A stretch of DNA of 64,000 nucleotides from Desulfocicer vacuolatum DSM 3385 (GTDB lineage: Bacteria > Desulfobacterota > Desulfobacteria > Desulfobacterales > Desulfobacteraceae): positions 1 to 64,000 of the forward strand of contig NZ_FWXY01000009.1 of the NCBI RefSeq assembly GCF_900176365.1. The letters are read 5' to 3'. A program made the translations under genes and the position numbers. The notes beneath the pieces are model-generated. The model saw only the letters and a program-made list of their open reading frames with translations, did no database searches and was not told the origin of the DNA. Shown here piece by piece: positions 6,387-58,812 of this stretch (its first letter is position 1; each line of letters begins with the position of its first letter).

Positions 6387-6463
6387 GCGCCTGTAGCTCA
6401 GCTGGATAGAGCGTCGGACTTCGAATCCGCAGGTCGGGAGTTCGAATCTCTCCAGGCGTGCCA
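6387..6463 (+). tRNA. tRNA-Arg (TCG), attachment site of the integrated element
   Basis: Acceptor GCGCCTG pairs with CAGGCGT. The anticodon loop CTTCGAA carries TCG, the T-loop is TTCGAAT and CCA is encoded. The 3' 50 bases are repeated perfectly at 21377-21428, showing that the gene is the attB site of the element to its right. The gene is left intact. Confidence 0.96.
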
Positions 6464-6465
6464 TA
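6414..6465 (+). repeat. attL, 52-bp core in tRNA-Arg 3' half
   Basis: Starts TCGGACTTCG in the anticodon arm and ends GTGCCATA just past the CCA. It is identical base for base to 21377-21428, in the same orientation. Confidence 0.95.
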
Positions 6466-8579: not shown

Positions 8580-9667
8580 GCCTCCACCCCCATCTCGGTC
8601 AAGAATTGTGCTGCGGCCATGTAATTTGAATCCATCCGTTTACAGCCCGTGACAGTCCCATTGGGATATCTCCCGGCAGGAATAGCACCTGCAAAGCCCC
8701 CAGGTGATAACATGGCAGTGGTGGTGGGTTGACTTTTCATGGTTTCCAGGTACCCGGCGGCCCACTGGTTTTTCAAAGTCTTATCCAGGTATGCCTTGTA
8801 CTGCATCCACCCGCCTTTCACGTTGGCGGTGGCATAAGCAATGGCCTCCCGCACCTCCAGGGGGCTGTATTCCTTTGCGGATTTGTTGACAAGGGCCTTC
8901 ACCATGGGTTGCTGGTGCTGTTCAGGGATGAGGTCCCAAAGAGAATTTATATCTTCTGTGGCTGGATACGACGACGGCGGCTCCACAACTTCCACCTTTG
9001 GCTCTGGATCCGGGGCAGTAGTCGTTTCTCCCTTTGGATTGTTAATACCCTTATTAGTTATTACGTCCTCGGATTCCCGTATGTGGGTTTTCCGCATGCG
9101 GTCATCATTATTGGCGTGGGTATCCCTGGTCTGGGTTTTAGCCTGGCTGCTTTTCTCCATCGGTGCCCCCAGTTTTGGGGTGGCATCCCCTTCCTGTATA
9201 ATAAGTTGCCTTGAATTTGAGGCAACCTTTGATACTTCCCCGCTGCTCACATCTGAGCAGCCCCCGGAGAGGATGTCTTTGGATTTGAGATCACAGATTG
9301 TGACACCAGAATTTTTCGTGCCTTTTGTGACATCGCATTTTGCGATATCTAAAACACTCTCAGTGGCGGCAGGGTCCACCCGATGATCAAAGACAACATA
9401 CCGGGTCCCGGTGATCCTGCCACATTCCCCCCTGGTCACCTCTTTGTGAAGATACCCGGCCTCCACCAGCTCGGTTAAAGAGGATCTTAAAGCGGTGTGG
9501 CCATCCTTGCCGGTCTTTACCAGATGATTGACATTGACGTTCCAGGTGTCCGGCCTCGATAACAGCCGGGCAAGTGTCCCCCGGGCTTTATCTGAGATGG
9601 TTTCATCTTGCAAAAATTCATTTGGAATCCGGGTATAATTGCCTTTCAATTCTTTTCTGATAATCAT
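8576..9667 (-). CDS. replisome-organiser-like protein with N-terminal winged helix
   Basis: 363 residues. Residues 1-95 (IPNEFLQDETISDKARGTLA, then TALRSSLTELVEAGYL) match the winged-helix domain of phage replication initiators/replisome organisers. Residues 110-225 are a low-complexity, hydrophilic linker; residues 230-330 form a conserved block (SYPATEDIN, YATANVKGGWMQYKAYLDK). Such proteins bind the origin and recruit the helicase loader, which fits the coupled gene downstream. A frameshifted homologue lies at 25252-26036. The role is inferred from domain type and position. Confidence 0.7.
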   Translation of the reverse strand: MIIRKELKGNYTRIPNEFLQDETISDKARGTLARLLSRPDTWNVNVNHLVKTGKDGHTALRSSLTELVEAGYLHKEVTRGECGRITGTRYVVFDHRVDPAATESVLDIAKCDVTKGTKNSGVTICDLKSKDILSGGCSDVSSGEVSKVASNSRQLIIQEGDATPKLGAPMEKSSQAKTQTRDTHANNDDRMRKTHIRESEDVITNKGINNPKGETTTAPDPEPKVEVVEPPSSYPATEDINSLWDLIPEQHQQPMVKALVNKSAKEYSPLEVREAIAYATANVKGGWMQYKAYLDKTLKNQWAAGYLETMKSQPTTTAMLSPGGFAGAIPAGRYPNGTVTGCKRMDSNYMAAAQFLTEMGVEA

Positions 9668-9668
9668 T

Positions 9669-9926
9669 TTAAAGCCCCCTCAATATTTTGGGCATGACTT
9701 CCTGTGGATCAAGAGCCACAAGGCCCGGCCATACTTGTTGGCGTTTTTTTGCCAGAAACATCAAATGTTCATAATCATCCTTGGCCTTGGTCAACATTTC
9801 AACCATACCCTGGTAAACCTCTGGTGACATCGCCAATTCTTTATTCAAGTCGGTTTCCTGTTTCTTCATGAAGTTGATGAGGATCTGTAATCGTAGTTGT
9901 GAGCGTTCAGGGGTTTTTATTGACAT
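9669..9926 (-). CDS. small conserved protein of the element family
   Basis: 85 residues, highly charged and helical, ending LAKKRQQVWPGLVALDPQEV and MPKILRGL. One base separates its stop from the organiser gene, and its start overlaps the upstream gene by 10 bp, so it belongs to the operon. A truncated relative at 26033-26280 keeps the AKKRQQ-WPG block, showing a conserved part of this element type. Function unknown. Confidence 0.7.
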   Translation of the reverse strand: MSIKTPERSQLRLQILINFMKKQETDLNKELAMSPEVYQGMVEMLTKAKDDYEHLMFLAKKRQQVWPGLVALDPQEVMPKILRGL

Positions 9927-10330: not shown

Positions 10331-10475
10331 GATAAGGCTCCTTTGGTAGAATTAAGCCCTTTCGGTCCTTCCAAAAACAAAAAGGGCAACATGAAGGTTG
10401 GAAGACCGGCCCAAAGAAACCGGCAGGCCCTAAGGCCTCCCCCATGCTGCCCTATAAGGACGCATGAAATAAAAA

Positions 10476-21300: not shown

Positions 21301-21376
21301 TATGACCCAAAGAGAATAAAGTCAAGGTTTATTAAAGGGTTAGTGATAGAGCGTGAGTGTGTGTGAAGGGTGTGTT

Positions 21377-21428
21377 ATCGGACTTCGAATCCGCAGGTCG
21401 GGAGTTCGAATCTCTCCAGGCGTGCCAT
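21377..21428 (+). repeat. attR, 52-bp copy of the tRNA-Arg 3' end
   Basis: Perfect copy of 6414-6465 but without the 5' half of a tRNA; not a functional tRNA gene. Confidence 0.95.
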
Positions 21429-21434
21429 ATTTTA

Positions 21435-25255: not shown

Positions 25256-26036
25256 TGGTCATGACGTCCCCTCCTTTTGGCCAGAAATTCAGCTGCAGCT
25301 TGATAATTACTGTCCATCCTGGCAGAGCCCGTAACAGTGCCATTGGGATATCTCCCGGCAGGAATACCCCCGGCAAAGCGCCCAGGAGACAAAACGGCAG
25401 GGGCAGTGGTGCTTATGGTTTCCAGGTACCCGGTGGCCCACTGGTTTTTCAAAGTCTTGTCCAGATATGCCTTGTACTGCATCCACCCGCCTTTGACATT
25501 GGCAGTGGCATATGTGAAGGCCTCCCGCACCTCCAGGGCGGTGTATTCCTTCACAGCTTTGTTGACAAGGGAAAGTACCATGGGTTGTCGGTGCTGCTCC
25601 GGTACAAGATCCAAGAGAGAATTTAGATCCTCTGTGGCGGGGTACGACTGCGGCGAATGTTCTTCCACCTTTGGCTCTGGTTCTGGGGCTGGGGTAGTAG
25701 TCGTTTCCCTTAGTGTTTGTTGTATATTAGTATTTATTACTGGGGCTGTTCCGGTGCCTTATCTTCCATGGAAGGGGTGTCCGATTTGTCCACTCCTTTT
25801 GTCAGTGCAGGGGATTCATAAACATGATATTCCGTCCCGGTGATCTGCCCGGCTTTATTCCTGACCACCTTCCGGTGGATGTACCCGGCTTTTTTGAATT
25901 CGGCAATGGAAGATCTTATGGCGGTCCTGCCCGGTATGCTTCAAGCCTATATCCGGTAAGTTCGGCCAGCTCCTCAATCACCTTGATGGCGTCTTTTGCT
26001 ACACTGGAAAGGGCGGCGATGCTGTGGGTATCTTAA
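25252..26036 (-). pseudogene. frameshifted replisome-organiser gene of the second element
   Basis: The C-terminal 138 codons (SYPATEDLN, YATANVKGGWMQYKAYLDK, IPAGRYPNGTVTG) match the 8576-9667 product closely. Upstream, the winged-helix part (TAIRSSIAEFKKAGYIHRKV, GQITGTEYHVYES) is present but in another frame; stops and at least two frameshifts (near 25745 and near 25930) separate the pieces. The front is also shortened. Confidence 0.85.
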
Positions 26037-26280
26037 AATTCAAAAGGCTCATGATCGGTTACGCATGACTCAACATGAAGGATATCGGCCACCAGCTTGA
26101 GCTTGCCCAGGGAAAGGGTGCAAAGCCCCAATAGGTTTAGTTCTTGCTCCAGCTCTTCTTGTGTGAAATCCCCCCTCAATACTTTGGGCATGACTTCCTG
26201 TGGCTCAAGTGCCACCTCTCCTGGCCATATTTGCTGGCGTTTTTTTGCCAGTACCATGAAATATTCATAATCATCCTTGG
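26033..26280 (-). pseudogene. truncated relative of the 85-residue element protein
   Basis: Keeps AKKRQQIWPGEVALEPQEVM and MPKVLRG as at 9669-9926, with a different C-terminal tail (through VTDHEPFEF). Similarity stops abruptly near 26280, marking the broken end of the second element. Confidence 0.75.
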
Positions 26281-34248: not shown

Positions 34249-34603
34249 TTTCTCTCCTTGGTGTTTTAGTTGTTTATTCGTTTTGGTCGATTTTACAGGA
34301 ACGGGCCTGCTTATGTTTTCGGAGATATCCGAAAATAGTCGCTACGATATATAAACTCCATGGATAATGCACATACAGCTCTGATTTTTCTTTGGTTTTC
34401 TAACAGCATAAACTAATGAGCATAGGGTATTAACAGTATGACCTGTCAGTCAGTAGCAAAAGAAGGAGAGGGGGTCAATGATTTTTAGCGTATTTTTACT
34501 ATTATATAATCTCCATCAAACGCTTAATATTATTCATAAAATCATTATGCTTTTGCCGGTGGGTCCATTGTGTTTTTATGAATGCCTTTTGTTGTTGTTT
34601 TTT

Positions 34604-35262
34604 TTATATGAAATACTCCGAAAATTTAAGGCGTATTTCAAGCTTCGTTGTGGGCAGAACGAGATCAAAATAAGATCTGCCCGTGGCAGTTTATATGAAA
34701 TACTCCGCAAACCGGGGATGCATTTCAAGTTTTGTTGTGGGCAGAGCCGGATCAGAATACGGTCCGCCCGTGGCGGTTATATAGTTTTTTACCGGTATTT
34801 TAAAATTGAAGTTATTAAGACACTTGAAATCATCGGTCTTATGCTTTAGTTTTCTGTGGTTCATTGAAAGTCTCCTTTTCTGTGATCTTTGAGCGATTCA
34901 CGGTTGGGGAGGCTTTTTTATATTTTGTAAATGTCAAATTGGGGAGGCTTTCCGGCAAAACCCGGGACTGCCTCTTTGTTTTTTTATTAGAAAATAAAAC
35001 TTCCGGGTAACCTCAGAAGAGCCCCCCCCCGAGGGGTAATAGGAACCGGCCAATCGAGCTGTCTACAGTTCCGGGCCGGGACCATTACCCCTCGGGGGGG
35101 CGGCATGACACCATTTTCAATGGCGGCATGACACCATTTTCAATATTTGTTGTGTCCGTGAGGACATGCTCGTTATATGAAGTATTCCGCAAATCAGGGG
35201 CGTATTTCAAGCTTTGTTGTGGGCAGAACCGGATTAGAATACGATCTGCCCATGGCAGTTAA
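34604..35262 (+). repeat. palindromic repeat cluster 1 (A1, A2, B1, A3)
   Basis: Family A copies at 34604-34690, 34690-34783 and 35173-35262. Each has a GAAATAC..GTATTTC hairpin, then TTTGTTGTG, then a GGGCAGA..TCTGCCC-type hairpin and GTGGCAGTTATAT. Family B at 35021-35104: a long hairpin whose arms end in a run of C and G, with GAGCTGTCTACAGTTCC at its tip. A duplicated GGCGGCATGACACCATTTTC follows, then TGTCCGTGAGGACA, a short hairpin between the usual TTTGTTG and GTTATAT. Confidence 0.9.
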
Positions 35263-35293
35263 TTAAAAATATAAAAGCAGGAGAGTTTATATC

Positions 35294-36343: not shown

Positions 36344-36643
36344 GCCGCCCCTGAGGGGCAATGGTCCCGGCCCGGAACTGTAGACAGCTCAATTGTCCGG
36401 TTCCTATTGCCCGTCGGGGGGGCGGCTTTGCTGAGGTTGCCTTGGAAGCTGCCTTTTCATATAACTGCCATGGGCAGATCATATTGGGATTTGACCTGCC
36501 CACAACGAAATTTGAAACTCTAATCATTGCAATGCTTTGGGTGGAGTTTCATATAAACTGCCATGGGCAGACCTTGTTTTGATCCGGCCCTGCCCACAAC
36601 AAAGCTTGAAACACACCCTTGATTTTGGGAGTATTTCATATAA
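36344..36643 (-). repeat. palindromic repeat cluster 2 (B2, A4, A5)
   Basis: B2 at 36344-36426, then two family A copies in reverse orientation (36459-36553, 36551-36643) sharing the ATAT junction. The linker CTGAGGTTGCCTTGGAAG also appears in clusters 3 to 5. No gene in this gap. Confidence 0.9.
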
Positions 36644-36706
36644 AAAACAGCATATAATGATCATATCCTGTTGACTCGTGTTTTGAAATGGTATGTAATC
36701 ATCCAG

Positions 36707-40078: not shown

Positions 40079-40678
40079 TTATTCTCCGGGTTTTGCCAGG
40101 GCATTCATGCTGAGAAATCCCTGTACCAGCTCTTCAATACTCATCTCTCCTTCCCGCAGCAACGCCTGCACTGCCACACCCTGGAGTCCGGCGATGAATC
40201 CAATGGCAATGGCCCGGTTTATTTTTTCCTGGGAAAATTTGTTTAATGCCGCTTCAAAGGCGTCCACAAACCGATCATAAACCGCCTGAACCTTTAGAAT
40301 TACCGGTCCTCTGATGCTGCTGAACTCAGCTGCCAGGGAGGTCATGCTGATGATGATATCAGGATCTGTATGAAATCGTTTGACAAATATATCAGCCATT
40401 CCTGTGATCATGGTCCGGCGATCCCGGTGATCCCGGGCCAGAAATTCAATATATTCTTCAAAATTGTGATCCAGGTTTTCCACCACCGCATCCAGAATAT
40501 CTTTTTTAGATCCAAAGTGATGAAATACGGCTCCGGTGGTCATGCCGATGTGCTGGGCAATATCTTGTATGGTGGTCTTATGAAAACCCAATGTGGCAAA
40601 AAGATGGGTTGCCGCATCTATTATTTTTCCCCGGGTGGCAATTCTTCTGGCTTCTTTTTTATTCAATATATGGTTCAT
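40079..40678 (-). CDS. TetR-family transcriptional regulator
   Basis: 199 residues. The N-terminal helix-turn-helix reads IIDAATHLFATLGFHKTTIQ and DIAQHIGMTTGAVFHHFGSK, a textbook TetR domain; the rest is a helical ligand domain. Its start lies inside the last codons of the AOR gene (20-bp overlap), so the two are one operon. It likely represses the AOR/Liv divergent promoters through the near-palindromes at 43246-43355, and responds to a substrate or CoA ester of the pathway. Confidence 0.9.
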   Translation of the reverse strand: MNHILNKKEARRIATRGKIIDAATHLFATLGFHKTTIQDIAQHIGMTTGAVFHHFGSKKDILDAVVENLDHNFEEYIEFLARDHRDRRTMITGMADIFVKRFHTDPDIIISMTSLAAEFSSIRGPVILKVQAVYDRFVDAFEAALNKFSQEKINRAIAIGFIAGLQGVAVQALLREGEMSIEELVQGFLSMNALAKPGE

Positions 40679-43076
40679 TGTGCTCTACTCCCAAACGTTT
40701 TAAGGTTGATTCCATTGGAATCCCCTTTTTACTCCATCCACGTTGTGAATAATAGTCCTGCTTCATATAATCCATATCTTCCCGGGAAATCCGATGGCCT
40801 TTGTGGGGACCGTCGGGTAACGCTTCTGCCACAAATCTTCTGGGTAACCGGTCCTGGCCGGGGTCAAGCCCCTCCCTTAAATTAAAAAGCCGGGTGAGGT
40901 TCCAGATTTTTTCTCCGGTTTCGTCAAACAAGGTCTTTTTCACCCGTTGACCTGTTGCTGCTTCAAGGAGTAACCCATAGGTCTCTTTTGAGATACCAAA
41001 GCTGCCAAAATCGCATTTTACAAGGGTGTCCAGCCCTGCTGAATAATTTTGCAGGGAATAAACCAATTCTGCTTTTCCCACAATGTCCAGGGGACCCATC
41101 TGTTTTTTCTTCCATTCCACTCCCCCCACCTCATAGGCGATGGGAAAGGCCCGCTGGTGGCATGCCCCCCGATCGGCGGTCATGATGGCAAGCCCCATTC
41201 CGGAAGCCCCCCTGGGACCCCATGCCGGCGCTTCCATGCCCTTGACGTGAACGGCGATGTCTTTGGAATCCTTGCCAATGATTGCAGCCGCTTTTTTAAC
41301 ACCCAGCGACAGGGTCTTTCCCAGATCGCTGTCTTGATTTGCAATGGTTTTAATGAGATATTCTGCAGCCTGGATATTGCCAAATTTAAGTTCCACTCCC
41401 TCTGGGGAATTTAACACGCCTTTTTCGCCAAGTTCCATGGCAAAGCCAATGACAGCCCCTGTGGACATGCTGTCAATGCCCAGAAGATCACACAATTTCA
41501 CCAGATGGGCCACGGCCCTTACATCACTGATATCCAGATTGGCCCCCATGAGGGCTGCAGATTCATATTCCAGCATATCCGTGATAATGCCCTTGTATTT
41601 TCCGGTTCTCACAGCCCCCATTTTACTGCACCGGATGGGGCACCCCATGCAGGCGGAACTGCCCAGCCACAGATGCCGGGCCTGGCCGATGTCAGACAGC
41701 TTATTGCTTTTTTCAAAGGTTCCCCCCATGTAATTTTTATGGGGAAGTAAACCGGTTTCATTGGCATAGTCAACGGCACCGGCGGTGCCTCCGGCTTTCA
41801 TGGCATCAATGTCAGCACTGGCATCCAGTTCTGTTTGGGCCTTAGCACACGCTTTAATAAAGGCGGCAGGGTTGTTAAGGCCCACAATTTGCGACCCCCG
41901 CACCGCAATGGCCTTAAGATTTTTAGACCCCATCACCGCCCCGGCACCGCCCCTTCCGGCCTGGCGATTATATTCGCAACCGATGAGGGCGTAGTTCACA
42001 AGATTTTCACCGGCCGGACCAATGGATGCCACCCGCACGGAAGTGTCTCCCAGCTCTTTTTTGATGGAATGGTTAACCGTCAGGGTATCTTTGCCCCGGA
42101 GATGAAGGGCATCCCGTATTTCAACGGTGTCATCATCAATCCAGAGATAAACCGGTTTGTCTGATTTTCCTTGAATGATAATACCGTCATAACCGGCATA
42201 TTTAATTTCCGGGGCAAAATGTCCCCCAAAGTAACTGTCCAGAAAGGTGTGGGTCAACGGTGATTTTGTTACAATGCACCCCCGCATGGCAGGGGCCATG
42301 GTACCGGTGAGGGGGCCGGTCATGACCATGAGTACATTGTCTGGACCCAATGGATCGGTCCCCGGTGCAAGGAGATCATAAAGAAGTCTGGCTCCAAATC
42401 CCTTTCCTCCGATATATTGTTGTTTCATTTTGGGGGATAAAGGAATTTGCCGGGATGTTAATGTTGTCAGATCCACAAGGAGAAACTTATTCATATAACT
42501 GCCACGGGCAGGGCCTGTATCGCACCCGGATTTATCAGCCGTAAAGCTTGAAAATTTTTCAGTTTTACCGGGATTTTCACATAAAGCTTTATTCTTGTTT
42601 TTGTCTTTATTGATCCATTCAAGGGCACCGGTGGGACAGGCAGATACGCACAGAGGGTCCCCCATGCAGGTGTCGCATTTCACCGCTTTTTTTGTTTCCG
42701 GGTCCAGTTTTACCATGCCTTCGGGGCAAAACTGCACACACAATCCACACCCCACACAGCGATTTTCATCAATGAGAACCACCCCTTCATCGTTCCTTGA
42801 ATAGGCGTTGGCCGGACAGACATTCATGCAATACGCATTGGCGCACTGGTTGCATATCACAGGCTTGTGGTAAAGATTTTCCTTTTTATTTTCAATCCGC
42901 AACCGGGATCGTCGGGTATTGTACCCCCCATGCCACCGCATGGAACAAGCCAGCTGACAGATATTGCAACCTGTGCAGAGATCAAAATTGGTTCTAATAA
43001 ATGAATTAATGGGCCGCCTCCTTTGACTGCAATGGGTTAAAGCGGTGCTGTCTTTTAAGGGGTCTGGTCGCAACAT
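40659..43076 (-). CDS. aldehyde:ferredoxin oxidoreductase fused to an N-terminal multi-cluster ferredoxin
   Basis: 805 residues from ATG 43076. Residues 30-185 hold ferredoxin motifs (CTGCNICQLACSM, CNQCANAYCMNVCP, CVGCGLCVQFCPE, CDTCMGDPLCVSACP) for up to four [4Fe-4S] clusters, as in AorB partners. From ATG codon at 42494 comes a normal 611-residue AOR (KFLLVDLTTL, GKGFGARLLY, cluster Cys in SSACMGCPIRCSK), a tungstopterin enzyme oxidising aldehydes to acids. The two parts are joined by about 30 codons from a decayed family A repeat (42495-42585) with no stop. AOR may also start independently at 42494. The ORF extends to 43250, but the upstream part looks non-coding. Confidence 0.85.
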   Translation of the reverse strand: MLRPDPLKDSTALTHCSQRRRPINSFIRTNFDLCTGCNICQLACSMRWHGGYNTRRSRLRIENKKENLYHKPVICNQCANAYCMNVCPANAYSRNDEGVVLIDENRCVGCGLCVQFCPEGMVKLDPETKKAVKCDTCMGDPLCVSACPTGALEWINKDKNKNKALCENPGKTEKFSSFTADKSGCDTGPARGSYMNKFLLVDLTTLTSRQIPLSPKMKQQYIGGKGFGARLLYDLLAPGTDPLGPDNVLMVMTGPLTGTMAPAMRGCIVTKSPLTHTFLDSYFGGHFAPEIKYAGYDGIIIQGKSDKPVYLWIDDDTVEIRDALHLRGKDTLTVNHSIKKELGDTSVRVASIGPAGENLVNYALIGCEYNRQAGRGGAGAVMGSKNLKAIAVRGSQIVGLNNPAAFIKACAKAQTELDASADIDAMKAGGTAGAVDYANETGLLPHKNYMGGTFEKSNKLSDIGQARHLWLGSSACMGCPIRCSKMGAVRTGKYKGIITDMLEYESAALMGANLDISDVRAVAHLVKLCDLLGIDSMSTGAVIGFAMELGEKGVLNSPEGVELKFGNIQAAEYLIKTIANQDSDLGKTLSLGVKKAAAIIGKDSKDIAVHVKGMEAPAWGPRGASGMGLAIMTADRGACHQRAFPIAYEVGGVEWKKKQMGPLDIVGKAELVYSLQNYSAGLDTLVKCDFGSFGISKETYGLLLEAATGQRVKKTLFDETGEKIWNLTRLFNLREGLDPGQDRLPRRFVAEALPDGPHKGHRISREDMDYMKQDYYSQRGWSKKGIPMESTLKRLGVEHNEPYIE
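42495..42585 (-). repeat. family A palindromic repeat inside the ferredoxin-AOR gene
   Basis: ATAACTGCCACGGGCAG, CCGG and AAAGCTTGAAA, then TTTTCACATAA align with a family A copy in reverse. It is more diverged than the intergenic copies but has the same open frame (..ARGSYM at its end). Confidence 0.7.
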
Positions 43077-43245
43077 CGTCCATCCATGGTCATCTGTGGA
43101 CCGGCAGATGTTATGGCTTCTTATGGTAACAGCTTGAAATAGTAAAAATTGTTGGGGAAGTTGACTGCAAAGCAACGTCTGTACCGGGCCACAATGTTCT
43201 GATGTTGGGATCAAGCTCTTTTTCAGCGTCGAATGAATTTTGTAT

Positions 43246-43355
43246 ATCACATACTATGTAATATGCAAGTCTTTTCTCCACAATTTTATCTTGCTTTTCA
43301 AAAACCACTGTGATAGGGCTTTGGGCTATAAATCGCATATTACATACTACGTGAT
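43246..43355. promoter_or_regulatory. two near-palindromic operators in the AOR/Liv divergent region
   Basis: ATCACATACTATGTAAT (43246-43262) and ATTACATACTACGTGAT (43339-43355). They are inverted copies of each other, extended by GCATATT / AATATGC on one side, and each is itself close to palindromic. Placement between divergent operons with a TetR gene in one of them makes them the best TetR operator candidates. Confidence 0.7.
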
Positions 43356-48066: not shown

Positions 48067-48127
48067 CGGCCGGCCCAGAGCTCAACCTGGTTGATTTAGA
48101 TTCTAATTTTTGATCTTTGTATTTTTT

Positions 48128-48400
48128 TTATATGAAATACTCCGCAACCCCGGGGAGTATTTCTAACTTTGTTGTGGGCGGAACCGAATCAAAATACGGT
48201 CCGCCCGTGGCGGTTATATACAATGCAGCCTCCAAGGCAACCTCAGCCGCCCCCCCGATGGGTAATAGGAACCGGCCAATTGAGCTGTCTACAGTTCCGA
48301 CCGGGACCATTGCCCATCGGGGGGGGCAAATGATACCATTTGGCTCGGCGTCTACGACCCTATATTTGTTGTGTCCGCCGGGAGATGCCCGTTATGGAAA
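48128..48400 (+). repeat. palindromic repeat cluster 4 (A7, B4 and short module)
   Basis: A7 at 48128-48220, linker CAGCCTCCAAGGCAACCTC, B4 at 48246-48327, then TTTGTTGTGTCCG..GATGCCCGTTATG. A7 carries a TAA in the otherwise conserved frame. Fills the gap between convergent genes. Confidence 0.9.
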
Positions 48401-50009: not shown

Positions 50010-50410
50010 TATAACTGCTACGGGCAGATCTTGTTCTGCTCACAACGAAGCTTGAAATACGCCCCTGATTCACGGAGTATTTCGGGGTTGATCATAAGCT
50101 GGGCTACTATACATGAGATAATATTTTATTAGCTACAAGGGATTGTAATTACAAATATTAATTTTTACCGCCAAAATTTTATCACAAAATGGCCGACGTT
50201 ATGACCAAGCCCAGTATTTCATATAAATGGGCATCTCCTGGCGGACACAACAAATATAGAGTCGTAGACGCGGAGCCAAATAGTATTATACCGCCGCCCC
50301 CCGACGGGCAATGGTCCCGGACCGGAACTGTAGACAGCTCAATTGTCCGGTTCCTATTGCCCGTCGGGGGGGGGCTCTGCCTTAGCTTGCCTTGGAGGCT
50401 GCCTTTTTAT
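50010..50410. repeat. palindromic repeat cluster 5 (A8 split by a MITE, B5)
   Basis: A8 (reverse) starts at 50010 and is interrupted after AGTATTTC at 50083 by MITE C copy 3; it resumes with the duplicated AGTATTTCATATAA at 50213. B5 spans 50291-50376, followed by the linker GCCTTGGAGGCTGCC. Confidence 0.9.
50084..50212. mobile_element. MITE family C, copy 3, nested in a family A repeat
   Basis: 129 bp, ends GGGGTTGATCATAAG and TTATGACCAAGCCC. Perfect 8-bp duplication AGTATTTC (50076-50083 and 50213-50220), which is part of the interrupted A repeat. Confidence 0.95.
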
Positions 50411-50455
50411 ATAAAAAAAATTGCGCATCCCGGTATATTCTTACACGCCAATAAC

Positions 50456-51145
50456 CTAATATTTTTCACAATACCTGTTTCTATAAGGCTCTTGAACAAT
50501 TGTGCGTTGCAGTTGGTTTTCCCATTCTGCATGCTGGTGAATTTTCAGGATATCTTCCAGCCGGTTTTGCTTTTTAAGGCGTTCATAGATATCACACCAT
50601 GCACAGGTAATATCGTAGGGAGCGTAGCTGTCAAGTTCACACTTACCGTTGCTCACGCCGCCGCAGGGTCCGTTAAAAAGACTTTTGGCGCATCGGGTCA
50701 CGGGACAGATCCCACCGGTATAACCGAGAACGCAATTTCCACAGGCCCGGCATTTCTCTTCATACACGCCGATATCCCTGTCTATTCCGATGGCTATGGT
50801 GTTCACCGCCGGGAAAATGGGGATGTTAGAAAATTTTTCCGCAAGGAGCTGTATTCCGGCTCCGCATGCCATGGAGATGATACAGTCATAGTCGGCTGCA
50901 GTCTCTTCAAGTTCAACAAGATATCTTAAGTTGCATGCCCTTTCAACGGTATAGCCGTCCATACGGGTCCGCAATCCCTCGGCCTTAAAGGTTTCATTGA
51001 GCTCAATGTTCAGGGCGTTGACCTCTTTTTGACCGCCTCCCAGGCAGACGGAGGCGCACCCTCCGCATCCGATGTTCAAAACCTTGTTATAATTTTTTAT
51101 AAAGGATTTGATTTCTTCAAAGGGTTTTCTTTCTATCTTAACCAA
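50456..51145 (-). CDS. metV: MetV-like methylenetetrahydrofolate reductase C-terminal-type zinc protein
   Basis: 229 residues, cysteine-rich. N-terminal GCGGCASVCLGGG, middle EEKCRACGNCVLG, GGICPVTRCAKSLFNGPCGG and late CAWCDIYERL match the MTHFR C-terminal/MetV family. MetV joins MetF in the carbonyl branch of the Wood-Ljungdahl pathway of acetogens and sulfate reducers. Here no metF is adjacent. Confidence 0.88.
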   Translation of the reverse strand: MVKIERKPFEEIKSFIKNYNKVLNIGCGGCASVCLGGGQKEVNALNIELNETFKAEGLRTRMDGYTVERACNLRYLVELEETAADYDCIISMACGAGIQLLAEKFSNIPIFPAVNTIAIGIDRDIGVYEEKCRACGNCVLGYTGGICPVTRCAKSLFNGPCGGVSNGKCELDSYAPYDITCAWCDIYERLKKQNRLEDILKIHQHAEWENQLQRTIVQEPYRNRYCEKY

Positions 51146-51177
51146 CTATACCTCCTGAACAATCATTTATTTTTTTT

Positions 51178-51500
51178 TATATGAAATACTCCTCAAATCA
51201 GGAGCGTATTTCAAGCTTTGTTGTGGGCGGAACGGGATCAAAATACGGTCCGCCCGTGGTGGTTATATGAAATACTCCGCATAGTTATGGAGCATTTCTA
51301 TTTTTGTTGTGGGCAGAACGAGATCAGAACAAGGTCTGCCCGTGGCAGTTTTATATATAATGCAGCCCCCAGGTCTACCTCAGCAGAGCCGCCCCCCCGA
51401 TGGGCAATAGGAACCGGACAATTGAGCTGTCTACAGTTCCGGTCCGGGCCCATTGCCCATCGGGGGGGCGGCGGTATAATACCTGTCCCACAGGACATGC
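51178..51500 (+). repeat. palindromic repeat cluster 6 (A9, A10, B6, short module)
   Basis: A9 51178-51266 and A10 51262-51357 in tandem, linker with ACCTCAGCAGAGCC, B6 51388-51473, then TGTCCCACAGGACA followed by TGCCCGTTTTATATGAAA. Lies upstream of metV and downstream of the cytochrome gene. Confidence 0.9.
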
Positions 51501-51581: not shown

Positions 51582-52175
51582 TCATTCCGGGGAAGTCGAT
51601 TTCGGCAGTATGTGGCACTCGCCACAGAGGGTGGGGAGCAGCTGATCACTGGGCGTTAAAAAGGCTTTCCATTGAATTCCCTTACGGGGAATCCAGAATT
51701 TTTTACTGTTCTCATTGTGACACGGGATGCATGAATTGTGAAATGCATCTTCAAGGTTGATTTTTGTGGTAGAATTGTGGCAGGAGCAACAGTTTGTGTT
51801 GGGATCACCCTCTTCCAGGTCTGATTCATCTAAAACATTTTCCCCATTTTCATAGAGATGATGGCAATCCAGACACTCCAGTACATCCATGTGGGCCTCA
51901 TGGGGAAATATCACCGGTGAGCGCTCTTTTGTGCCGCCGGTCTTACCTTGAAAACAGGAAAAATCATGATTGAGCAATATGTTTTCCATTTGGGCAAAGG
52001 CCGGTGGGGAATATACAAACGCACAAACTATGGTCAAAGCCGTCCAGAAATTTATTTTATAACTGCCACAGGCAGACCTTGTTTTGATCCGGTCTTGCCC
52101 ACAACAAAGTTTGAAATACGCCTCTGATTTGCGGAGTATTTCATATAAGTTTTGAAAATGTTTTTTCATCTGCAT
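51582..52175 (-). CDS. tetrahaem c-type cytochrome (TmcA-like) with a repeat inserted in the signal peptide
   Basis: 197 residues from ATG 52175 (GAGGGGAG upstream). Four haem sites: CLDCHH, CCSCHN, CIPCHN, CGECHI, as in type II cytochrome c3. The signal peptide is split: basic start MQMKKHFQN, then about 30 residues encoded by a family A repeat (LYEILRK.., ..RSACGSYK), then the hydrophobic FWTALTIVCAFVYSPPAFA with an AFAQ cut site. Downstream partner of the Fe-S and membrane subunits; likely the periplasmic electron donor of a Tmc/Hmc-like complex. Whether it is still exported is open. Confidence 0.82.
   Translation of the reverse strand: MQMKKHFQNLYEILRKSEAYFKLCCGQDRIKTRSACGSYKINFWTALTIVCAFVYSPPAFAQMENILLNHDFSCFQGKTGGTKERSPVIFPHEAHMDVLECLDCHHLYENGENVLDESDLEEGDPNTNCCSCHNSTTKINLEDAFHNSCIPCHNENSKKFWIPRKGIQWKAFLTPSDQLLPTLCGECHILPKSTSPE
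52055..52148 (-). repeat. family A repeat inside the cytochrome c gene
   Basis: A full, little-diverged copy: ATAACTGCCACAGGCAG .. CTTGCCCACAACAAAG .. GAAATACGCC .. GGAGTATTTCATATAA in reverse. In the gene direction it is open in the frame shared with most other copies. Confidence 0.92.
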
Positions 52176-52223
52176 TTTCTCCCCTCTCTGTTCCAAGGTT
52201 ACGCACAATGGAAAAGAGGCAGC

Positions 52224-52604
52224 TTATTCTTCATCAAATTGAGGCAGCACACCCTGATCACGGCATATGCCCCTGGTAAGCGCTATCATCCCGGGAATAT
52301 CAATGCCCATGGGGCAGTAACAACGTGTGCAGAGTACGCACCTGTCCCAGACGACCTCCCTTATTTCTTCCAGTCCTTTTCTGTCGATGTTCCCTTTTTT
52401 TTTATACAGCCTGCCCAGGGAATTTATAAATTTATGGGAAGGCATATAAACGGGATCTTTTTCCCGGTGCATATAAAGGAAGCAGCTTTCTGCACACAGA
52501 GTACAATGAACGCATAGTTTAAGGGATAAACTGATTTGCGCTTTGTTTTTATTGAGGGTTGTTCGGATTTTTCCGGTATCAACCGTGTCTGTTGTTTCTT
52601 TCAC
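52224..52604 (-). CDS. HdrC/TmcB-like iron-sulfur protein
   Basis: 126 residues with two clusters: LCVHCTLCAESC (then a distant Cys role taken by following residues) and DRCVLCTRCYCPMGID. Layout like HdrC and the N-terminal part of TmcB/HmcF; the CCG domains of TmcB are absent, so this is a short form. Passes electrons between the membrane cytochrome b and a cytoplasmic partner. Between cytochrome c (15-bp gap after stop) and cytochrome b genes (20 bp), same strand. Confidence 0.75.
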   Translation of the reverse strand: MKETTDTVDTGKIRTTLNKNKAQISLSLKLCVHCTLCAESCFLYMHREKDPVYMPSHKFINSLGRLYKKKGNIDRKGLEEIREVVWDRCVLCTRCYCPMGIDIPGMIALTRGICRDQGVLPQFDEE

Positions 52605-52624: not shown

Positions 52625-53395
52625 TCACCAATTATCAATGTCAAATTTCTTTTTTCCAAAATACCATCTTTTAAAACTGAATTTGGGACCCCCGAAATAC
52701 CATGTTCTGGTTCCGCGGCCGAAACTGTTTTCATGGGGGATGAGAAATCTGTTAATAAAAAAGAATAGCATGTGGACCAGTTTTGTGAAAGGCAGCAGAA
52801 TAAGCATTATTTCACCGGAAAGCATGTGCAGAATAATCATCGGTTTATAGGCAGTGGTCTGGTGAAAGGCAAGAAAACCGGTGATAAAAGGCATGGCCGT
52901 CAACAGGAGAATAAGGTAATCGGAAAGGGTTGTGATGGATCTCACCCTTGGACTAAATATGCGCCGGAAGAGAAAAAACAGGGAGCATCCAATAACCATT
53001 ACTGTCATGATATCCGTGATGCCTTCGGGTAAACTGAAAAAACTTATTCCCCATGATTCATCAATGAGATTGTTATGCCCAAGAAGAAAGAGGGGGGCAG
53101 CAATAAGACAGGTATGAAATAGGGAGGTTATCACGGTCATTACCGGATGAACGCCGGCAATGGTGCCCTTGAAAAAAGATATGCGCCGGGCCGTGGATTT
53201 CACGGGTGGTGCGCACACAGCTGTTGTGGGGGAGAGGCGAAAGGGATTGTGTGTCGTTTTTTTTATTTTTTGACTGAGATAAAAAAAACGTAATACCTGG
53301 TATGCCGTTCCTGTAAAAAAGATAAGAAAGGCTGATAGGGCCAGGGGGCCCCGAACAAAATCATGAAACAGATCTAAGGAAATCATTTTTCTCAC
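52625..53395 (-). CDS. membrane cytochrome b subunit, TmcC/HmcE/NarI-like
   Basis: 256 residues, about five membrane helices with paired His (VHPVMTVITSLFHTCLIAAP, FHQTTAYKPMIILHMLSGEI) as in NarI-type di-haem cytochrome b subunits. First gene of the three-gene unit; connects the periplasmic cytochrome with the cytoplasmic Fe-S protein across the membrane. Confidence 0.8.
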   Translation of the reverse strand: MRKMISLDLFHDFVRGPLALSAFLIFFTGTAYQVLRFFYLSQKIKKTTHNPFRLSPTTAVCAPPVKSTARRISFFKGTIAGVHPVMTVITSLFHTCLIAAPLFLLGHNNLIDESWGISFFSLPEGITDIMTVMVIGCSLFFLFRRIFSPRVRSITTLSDYLILLLTAMPFITGFLAFHQTTAYKPMIILHMLSGEIMLILLPFTKLVHMLFFFINRFLIPHENSFGRGTRTWYFGGPKFSFKRWYFGKKKFDIDNW

Positions 53396-53935: not shown

Positions 53936-54136
53936 ATGGCTACAGGTACAGTGAAATGGTTTAACGATTCTAAGGGTTTTGGTTTCATCGAGCAGGAAAA
54001 CGGAGAGGATCTTTTCGTTCATCACTCAAGCATCAATGCAACCGGTTTTAAATCCCTTAATGAAGGGGACCGCGTGTCCTTTGATATTGAGCAGGGCCAG
54101 AAAGGTCCTGCAGCAGGAAATGTAACTGTAATTTAG
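53936..54136 (+). CDS. cold-shock (CspA-family) protein, copy 1
   Basis: 66 residues. Cold-shock domain with RNP1 KGFGFI and RNP2 LFVHHSSI. Binds single-stranded RNA/DNA as an RNA chaperone. GGAGATTGTCACA precedes the ATG. The product is identical in all residues to copy 2. Confidence 0.96.
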
Positions 54137-54380
54137 TTACAGCATATATTGTTTTGAATTTGTTAAGTGCCCCCTTTGGAGGGATATGAATTTAAGGCGG
54201 TATATATAAGCAAGACTTTCTTGGATTTTATCCAGGGAAGGTTTCAGATCAGAGCAGTCTTATGTCAAGGCTTGTTCAGTTTCGCACTTAGAGGAAAAAT
54301 AATTTGTCGGAAAAGCACATGTGTGTGACATCTACCTCAGGTTTGGAACATTTAAACTTTATTTTTCAGGAGATTGTCAC

Positions 54381-54581
54381 ATGGCTACAGGTACAGTAAA
54401 ATGGTTTAACGATTCTAAGGGTTTTGGTTTCATCGAGCAGGAAAACGGAGAGGATCTTTTCGTTCATCACTCAAGCATCAATGCAACCGGTTTTAAATCC
54501 CTTAATGAAGGGGACCGCGTGTCCTTTGATATTGAGCAGGGCCAGAAAGGTCCCGCAGCAGGAAATGTAACTGTAATTTAG
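54381..54581 (+). CDS. cold-shock (CspA-family) protein, copy 2
   Basis: 66 residues, same protein as copy 1, nucleotide sequence nearly identical. Its leader (TTCGCACTTAGAGGAAAA .. ACCTCAGGTTTGGAACA .. AACTTTATTTTTCAGGAG) parallels that of copy 1, so the whole gene with leader was duplicated in tandem. A frame from 54321 only extends into the leader. Confidence 0.96.
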
Positions 54582-54654
54582 TTATATCTGCATATACCGC
54601 TTTGATCTGTTTTGATCTTTATGATTGATTCATATTCAGGCTGGATATAGTTTT

Positions 54655-58561: not shown

Positions 58562-58762
58562 ATGGCTAATGGTATTGTAAAATGGTTTAACGACTCTAAG
58601 GGTTTTGGTTTTATTGAACAAGAAAACGGAAAAGATGTATTTGTACATCACACCGGAATTAATGCAACGGGCTTCAAGTCTCTGAATGAAGGAGATCGAG
58701 TTTCCTTTGACATTGAAGAGGGACAGAAAGGTCCTGCTGCAACTAACGTAACAGTGTTGTAG
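58562..58762 (+). CDS. cold-shock (CspA-family) protein, copy 3
   Basis: 66 residues, RNP1 KGFGFI, RNP2 VFVHHTGI. About 85 per cent identical to the tandem pair by eye, an older duplicate. Own promoter and terminator. Confidence 0.96.
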
Positions 58763-58812
58763 TCAGCCGTTTTACTCAGTCTTTAAGTCATCTTGGTGGC
58801 TTGCTGAAATAA

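Follow-up and report, generated by a model that had tools for sequence, protein, structure and literature searches.

The cytochrome gene described here lies on the minus strand of a 64,000-nucleotide stretch of the Desulfocicer vacuolatum DSM 3385 genome (contig NZ_FWXY01000009.1, positions 1 to 64,000), which is referred to below as the window. Its reading frame opens with the ATG at 52175, ends with a stop at 51582 and encodes 197 amino acids, with a match to Pfam Cytochrom_CIII (E 1.7e-8) that places the product among the class III cytochromes c. The gene for a 4Fe-4S protein directly upstream (52224-52604) is probably in one operon with the cytochrome gene. The Cys-rich protein encoded downstream may be MetV-like. 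The features of the locus are given below, with L149 denoting the nearest orthologous locus found.

51582-52175, minus strand: tetrahaem class III cytochrome c precursor of 197 aa, or 167 aa without the insert (Pfam, CXXCH motifs, open reading frame)
52179-52184, minus strand: GGGGAG, three bases ahead of the ATG (52175-52173) and its likely ribosome-binding site (sequence reading)
52149-52175, minus strand: MQMKKHFQN, the signal peptide's original 5' codons (DNA homologous to L149 up to 52150)
52059-52148, minus strand: family A repeat, 90 nt or 30 in-frame codons (profile search)
51993-52058, minus strand: remaining signal peptide, consisting of KIN, the hydrophobic core and the AFA cleavage motif (sequence; hydropathy maximum INFWTALTIVCAFVY)
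51861-51875, minus strand: haem motif 1, CLDCH (CXXCH in alignment)
51777-51791, minus strand: haem motif 2, CCSCH (CXXCH in alignment)
51717-51731, minus strand: haem motif 3, CIPCH (CXXCH in alignment)
51612-51626, minus strand: haem motif 4, CGECH (CXXCH in alignment)
52224-52604, minus strand: 4Fe-4S protein, next gene upstream (Pfam Fer4_8; DNA homology to L149)
52625-53395, minus strand: cytochrome b-like membrane protein (Nitrate_red_gam), further upstream (Pfam; homology to L149)
50456-51145, minus strand: gene for the Cys-rich protein, downstream (same placement relative to the cytochrome gene in L149 and in several relatives)
51162-51467, plus strand: gap behind the cytochrome gene, with two further copies of family A and one of family B (repeat search)

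Family A recurs many times within the window. With nhmmer and a model of the family, the cytochrome copy was delimited on the minus strand to 52148-52059, with a score of 96.6 bits. A preliminary description of this DNA had placed this copy at 52055-52148; the end at 52148 is right, and the other edge lies at 52059/52058 rather than at 52055. The same description rightly called the copy well preserved and all four CXXCH motifs downstream intact. Measured by profile score in a sample of 1,632,897 bases, the copy ranks 9 of 209 near-full-length copies in conservation, the profile having been built from 30 copies with that of the cytochrome included. The insertion had been put at about 30 codons in frame and comprises exactly 30 (codons 10-39), with the frame open throughout. 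Its peptide, LYEILRKSEAYFKLCCGQDRIKTRSACGSY, sits between MQMKKHFQN and KINFWTALTIVCAFVYSPPAFA, and 42 residues precede FWTALTIVCAF when the insert is present. The best other copies in the genome match the cytochrome copy with an E value of 8.2e-31, which is far beyond chance. Given its high rank in conservation, the insertion looks like a young, recent event.

The nearest orthologue was found among the best 80 of 164 related loci at L149, in the metagenome-assembled genome of Desulfobacteraceae bacterium 4572_123 (NBLJ01000092.1). The two cytochromes share 58% amino acid identity in the best segment, and the gene order is identical (cytochrome b-like protein, 4Fe-4S protein, cytochrome, Cys-rich protein). 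An uninterrupted signal peptide in relatives had been named as support for an insertion, and L149 has one, MYFQKKNFYISLVFILFFAVAGIPTALA, with the insert absent. DNA homology covers the upstream gene and the first codons of the cytochrome and stops at 52150, with the repeat starting at 52148, and then resumes at 52007 in the cleavage region. Because the homology comes within two bases of the repeat edge, L149 is, as judged from the aligned DNA, the empty site of the insertion, and the repeat is a true in-frame insertion. The target is A/T-rich and the empty site is diverged. The family A consensus gave no matches in 3.2 Mb of the 4572_123 genome (4/4 candidates scored, without a positive control), and the gap behind the cytochrome gene is shorter in L149 and shows none of the three repeat copies, two of family A and one of family B, that it has in D. 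vacuolatum. Closer relatives, insert-bearing or insert-free, may exist beyond those found, since the scan of named genomes possibly omitted records very close to the D. vacuolatum genome.

The same 30 residues in orthologues that lack the repeat family had been named as the observation that would speak against an insertion. They occur in none of the 16 other orthologues in alignment A1. This alignment comprises our sequence and the 17 best loci L032-L048 except L041, in which no start ahead of the haem domain gives a signal peptide. Among the 23 columns that are invariant in the other 16, the D. vacuolatum cytochrome departs from none. The length of the n-region varies without repeats too, as three of the 16 relatives (L042, L044 and L045) carry some 17 unrelated extra residues. 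A second candidate insert, between haems 3 and 4 (SKKFWIPRKGIQWKAF), was rejected on the grounds that L149 has the same stretch. A scan of the 80 named loci with the profile of family A yielded a single marginal match (L171:4377-4487, 14.7 bits, E 0.009), which is located directly behind the orthologous cytochrome gene in another Deltaproteobacteria metagenome-assembled genome.

The genome is a repeat-rich draft of 80 contigs, and a copy of the repeat could in principle have been misplaced in the contig during assembly. An error of this kind is scarcely credible, as the two flanks are parts of one and the same orthologous gene, an outcome that a chimera joined at the repeat would not yield. 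In addition, 90 bases are shorter than the common read length, and the copy has sequence differences of its own, with the closest other copy in the genome being 92% identical.

In-frame start codons precede the repeat at 52208 (TTG), 52196 (TTG), 52175 (ATG) and 52169 (ATG). A start-codon scan of the cytochrome frame revealed none between the repeat and the hydrophobic core, and those after the repeat are a TTG at 52037 within the core and an ATG at 51989, followed by later ones, behind the cleavage motif. Since c-type cytochromes require export, initiation behind the repeat would be of no use, as the signal peptide would be lost. In the frame as read, all in-frame starts that keep the signal peptide are upstream of the repeat, and translation must pass through it. 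The earlier suggestion that the gene might be exported from a changed start is not supported by these positions. An untranslated repeat with the true start behind it is very improbable for further reasons, with a good ribosome-binding site upstream of the repeat and homologous L149 DNA on both sides of it, even though many N-terminal REP insertions may be wrong start calls, as is warned in the sections of PMC3733652 cited here.

The insert peptide is basic and non-hydrophobic (6 K/R against 3 D/E) and would therefore lengthen the n-region of the signal peptide. The 15-residue hydropathy maximum of the core equals 1.72, compared with 2.60 and 2.61 in two relatives, and is unchanged by the insert. 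Export of the cytochrome may be weaker than in these relatives given its lower maximum. The weaker core, together with a copy so well preserved that the event may be recent, could also point to a pseudogene in the making, with export impaired or blocked by the insertion and the remainder still undecayed. We consider this unlikely, because the gene shows no stop, frameshift or missing haem ligand, has lost none of the invariant columns and retains its start, ribosome-binding site and gene order. If the insertion is young, however, decay has perhaps had no time to show, and its absence is weak evidence of function.

The likely explanation, in our assessment, is that a selfish family A copy is tolerated here as a longer and more basic cytosolic n-region, which signal peptidase should remove. 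One copy entered about nine codons behind the start of the cytochrome gene. The reading frame stayed open because 90 bases, a number divisible by three, were gained on balance and because this frame of the element contains no stop. The repeat peptide is predicted to extend the cytosolic n-region of a Sec signal peptide, leaving the hydrophobic core and the AFA motif untouched. The precursor would still be exported, signal peptidase I would remove the entire repeat peptide, and the mature cytochrome would be the same as in relatives. Under these assumptions the insertion would be near-neutral, a survivor of purifying selection rather than an adaptation. We infer expression, export, cleavage and near neutrality from the sequence. 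That the cytochrome tolerates a long n-region, the other option of the preliminary description, is plausible, and the finished protein is probably unharmed because the insert is located in the part of the export tag that is to be cut off.

The sample, window included, represents 32% of the 5,035,799-base genome and contains 281 family A matches, with 209 near-full copies. Six of these 209 copies lie wholly in called genes, compared with 154.8 ± 6.3 by random placement, 8 partly overlap called genes and 195 are intergenic, in a sample that is 80% coding. Genes were called by a simple codon-score caller; the cytochrome, DUF3450 and FtsX-like cases are absent from its list and were judged by hand, and two of the six inside copies share one 77-codon open reading frame that is probably spurious. 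Family A is a short, high-copy, intergenic palindromic element and is probably selfish. Coding selection on its open frame was rejected: among the 160 copies scoring 60 bits or more, read in the long open frame (frame 0), divergence equals 0.121, 0.138 and 0.092 at the successive codon positions, with the third diverging least. Based on this pattern, the frame seems not to be kept as protein. The frame is open in 122 of the 160 copies versus 111.5 ± 5.6 in simulation, an excess of 1.9 standard deviations that was not counted as evidence.

Altogether, 14 frames through copies have coding-like flanks, including six in or joined to a gene, five leaders (read as ahead of the gene start) and three weak or unclear cases; the cytochrome itself falls below the coding-flank threshold. 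For instance, about 29 mid-protein residues of lpxB (C37:11928-13139, minus strand, locus L107) derive from a degenerate copy in reverse orientation (33.1 bits), and matches in all seven genomes searched align on both sides and skip about 29 residues. By these alignments, lpxB is a second in-frame family A insertion. In a DUF3450 protein (C47:368216-369148, plus strand, locus L087), a repeat supplies the n-region preceding the signal core, with one ATG at the repeat edge behind a GGAGGAG just outside the repeat and an alternative ATG four codons before it. The start codon itself perhaps came from a family A copy, and the protein is probably exported; its orthologue in genome G061 aligns from residue 64 onward and may have its own start. 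Residues 3-29 of an FtsX-like permease (contig C41), before a conserved KLAWRN stretch, are likewise repeat-derived, and a GTG within the repeat is a possible start; the matches of most relatives begin at residue 26-32, with one beginning at 20 and another, which runs through a stop, at 9. An FtsW-like protein (contig C47) has a 29-residue repeat near its C-terminus, followed by ten residues. In the window, a 21.5-bit relic of family A (42495-42584, minus strand, within the open reading frame 40659-43250) bridges a 4Fe-4S frame and that of an aldehyde ferredoxin oxidoreductase, whose ATG is directly behind the relic, and a 1,932-codon open reading frame on C41 without a Pfam match contains a 29.1-bit relic. 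Coding flanks were also sought for the 13 of the 30 best copies that lie outside the sampled stretches, and no convincing in-gene case emerged. We tentatively raise the possibility, itself doubtful, that signal-peptide n-regions and cytosolic N-termini are a safe harbour for mobile palindromes because signal peptidase removes the added peptide, with family A repeatedly supplying or extending n-regions (the cytochrome, DUF3450 and perhaps the FtsX-like permease) as disposable pre-sequences.

The insert had been termed a palindromic repeat; it is a family A copy, but the family consensus folds into two adjacent hairpins (columns 7-38 and 43-87, 32 and 45 nt, -35.2 kcal/mol) and not into a single long palindrome. 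Two-sided pair changes, counted on this single-consensus fold, are slightly above those of shuffles in hairpin 1 (15 versus 8.8) and in hairpin 2 (55 versus 37.0, mainly one pair), and the covariation support for the hairpins is slight. Hairpins at mRNA codons 10-39 could have been recruited to tune how the mRNA is translated or how stable it is, or the lengthened basic n-region to alter targeting, and the consensus fold, its pair changes and the repeat-derived n-region of DUF3450, a second probably exported protein, would be in line with such a role. Recruitment is nonetheless improbable. The fold is ordinary in the real cytochrome mRNA context (z -1.57, with 17 of 200 shuffles equally good), the strong depletion of so common a family from genes fits harm or neutrality better, and the insert is present in no relative found.

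Family A matches were found in 9 of 291 genomes of the order, D. vacuolatum included. The nearest relative, in genome G056 (locus L061), is full length with 78% identity (3 scored of 167 first-look candidates), and the remaining seven genomes gave weak or partial matches. In genomes G128 (locus L062), G180 and G215 the match covers solely the query stretch 33-88, so that the second hairpin may represent an older module. As candidate terminal inverted repeats, the ends TTTTTATA and TATAAAAA are frequent and not fixed among 30 copies. The single transposase family searched, Y1_Tnp, is represented by four RAYT-like genes (C63:44528-60468 and C32:118929-119255). No family A match was detected within C63:40000-66000, home of three of them, and the four loci together gave one weak partial match (14.0 bits) and two below the inclusion threshold. 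A RAYT as mobiliser of family A was rejected, as these loci have no full copies nearby. Two of the C63 genes are flanked by GGGGTCAG/TGACCCC-type sequence, which is not family A. In the window, families A and B (CCCCCCGATGGG...) and a third module ending in GCCCGTTAT often abut (34589-35269, 36348-36647, 48113-48395, 50027-50424 and 51162-51467), suggesting mosaic elements assembled from hairpin modules.

An Rfam scan of the window at gathering scores revealed three tRNA matches and one C4 RNA, and nothing else. At 6387-6465 and 21357-21429, about 15 kb apart, the 3' end of tRNA-Arg is present as an exact direct repeat of 52 bp, and the interval contains an integrase-like and a primase-like open reading frame (by eye) as well as the C4 antisense RNA match (10381-10457). 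These direct repeats are likely att sites, with an integrated element between them. One gene segment, which looks replication-related by eye, occurs twice in diverged form (74-87% in pieces), at 8587-9784 and at 25269-26280, with one copy inside the putative element and the other outside it. Cold-shock-like genes (by eye) are present at 53936-54139, 54381-54584 and 58562-58765; the first two represent a 99% identical tandem duplication with similar leaders, and the third stretch is 78% identical.

In-frame repeat peptides had been described as known mainly from the Rickettsia palindromic elements (RPE), a view that proved too narrow. Published in-frame or intragenic repeats include, in the portions of the literature cited here, ERIC/RU-1, the Yersinia RU-2 that is part of the predicted signal peptide of YPO1552 (Delihas 2007), the 107-bp Neisseria Correia element, GTAG/CGTC REPs inside genes in several species (PMC3733652) and the Coxiella QMITEs, with in-frame insertions and extensions such as 33 C-terminal residues of EnhC (PMC5896051); in-gene repeat insertions are reviewed in PMC10969869. 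For sulfate reducers, the preliminary description knew of no case, and no report of an in-frame palindromic repeat or MITE in this group was found in the open-licence literature among the matches listed.

According to excerpts of these sources, RPEs and the Wolbachia palindromes are, like family A, short palindromes in frame in conserved genes and translated through. The cytochrome and lpxB copies share with RPEs the pattern of an in-frame repeat in a conserved gene that is absent from orthologues. In contrast to the two hairpins of family A, an RPE forms one long end-to-end stem-loop, and nearly half of RPEs are in open reading frames (PMC10969869, as excerpted), compared with the 6 of 209 family A copies wholly in called genes. 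The Yersinia RU-2/YPAL repeat in YPO1552 is said, in the text cited, to help form a new exported open reading frame, whereas the cytochrome repeat interrupts the n-region of a conserved gene with an empty-site relative. Intragenic GTAG/CGTC REPs resemble family A in being high-copy and mostly intergenic, with some genic copies and an N-terminal share (PMC3733652, sections cited); however, they are 20-40 bp long with a GTAG or CGTC tag, while family A is 90 bp long with neither tag in the consensus of 160 copies, inspected by eye. GTAG REPs also often lie near a RAYT gene, in contrast to family A, which has no full copy near the RAYT-like genes. The EnhC extension by a Coxiella QMITE resembles the FtsW-like tail found here (PMC5896051, in part). 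QMITEs are MITEs, whereas for family A a transposase relationship or target duplication is not demonstrable with Y1_Tnp as the family searched and from the flanks and a diverged empty site. Overall, this kind of insertion is already known outside Rickettsia, and the repeat family, the host group and the clean empty site are new as far as we have seen.

In-frame repeat peptides are now extended to the Desulfobacteraceae. The cytochrome locus represents a clean natural experiment, with an empty site in a relative and a recent-looking insert in a part of the precursor that would be discarded, and it allows direct testing of the amount of unrelated sequence that a signal peptide can take up in its n-region. 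A surviving in-gene copy need not imply selection for the peptide that it encodes.
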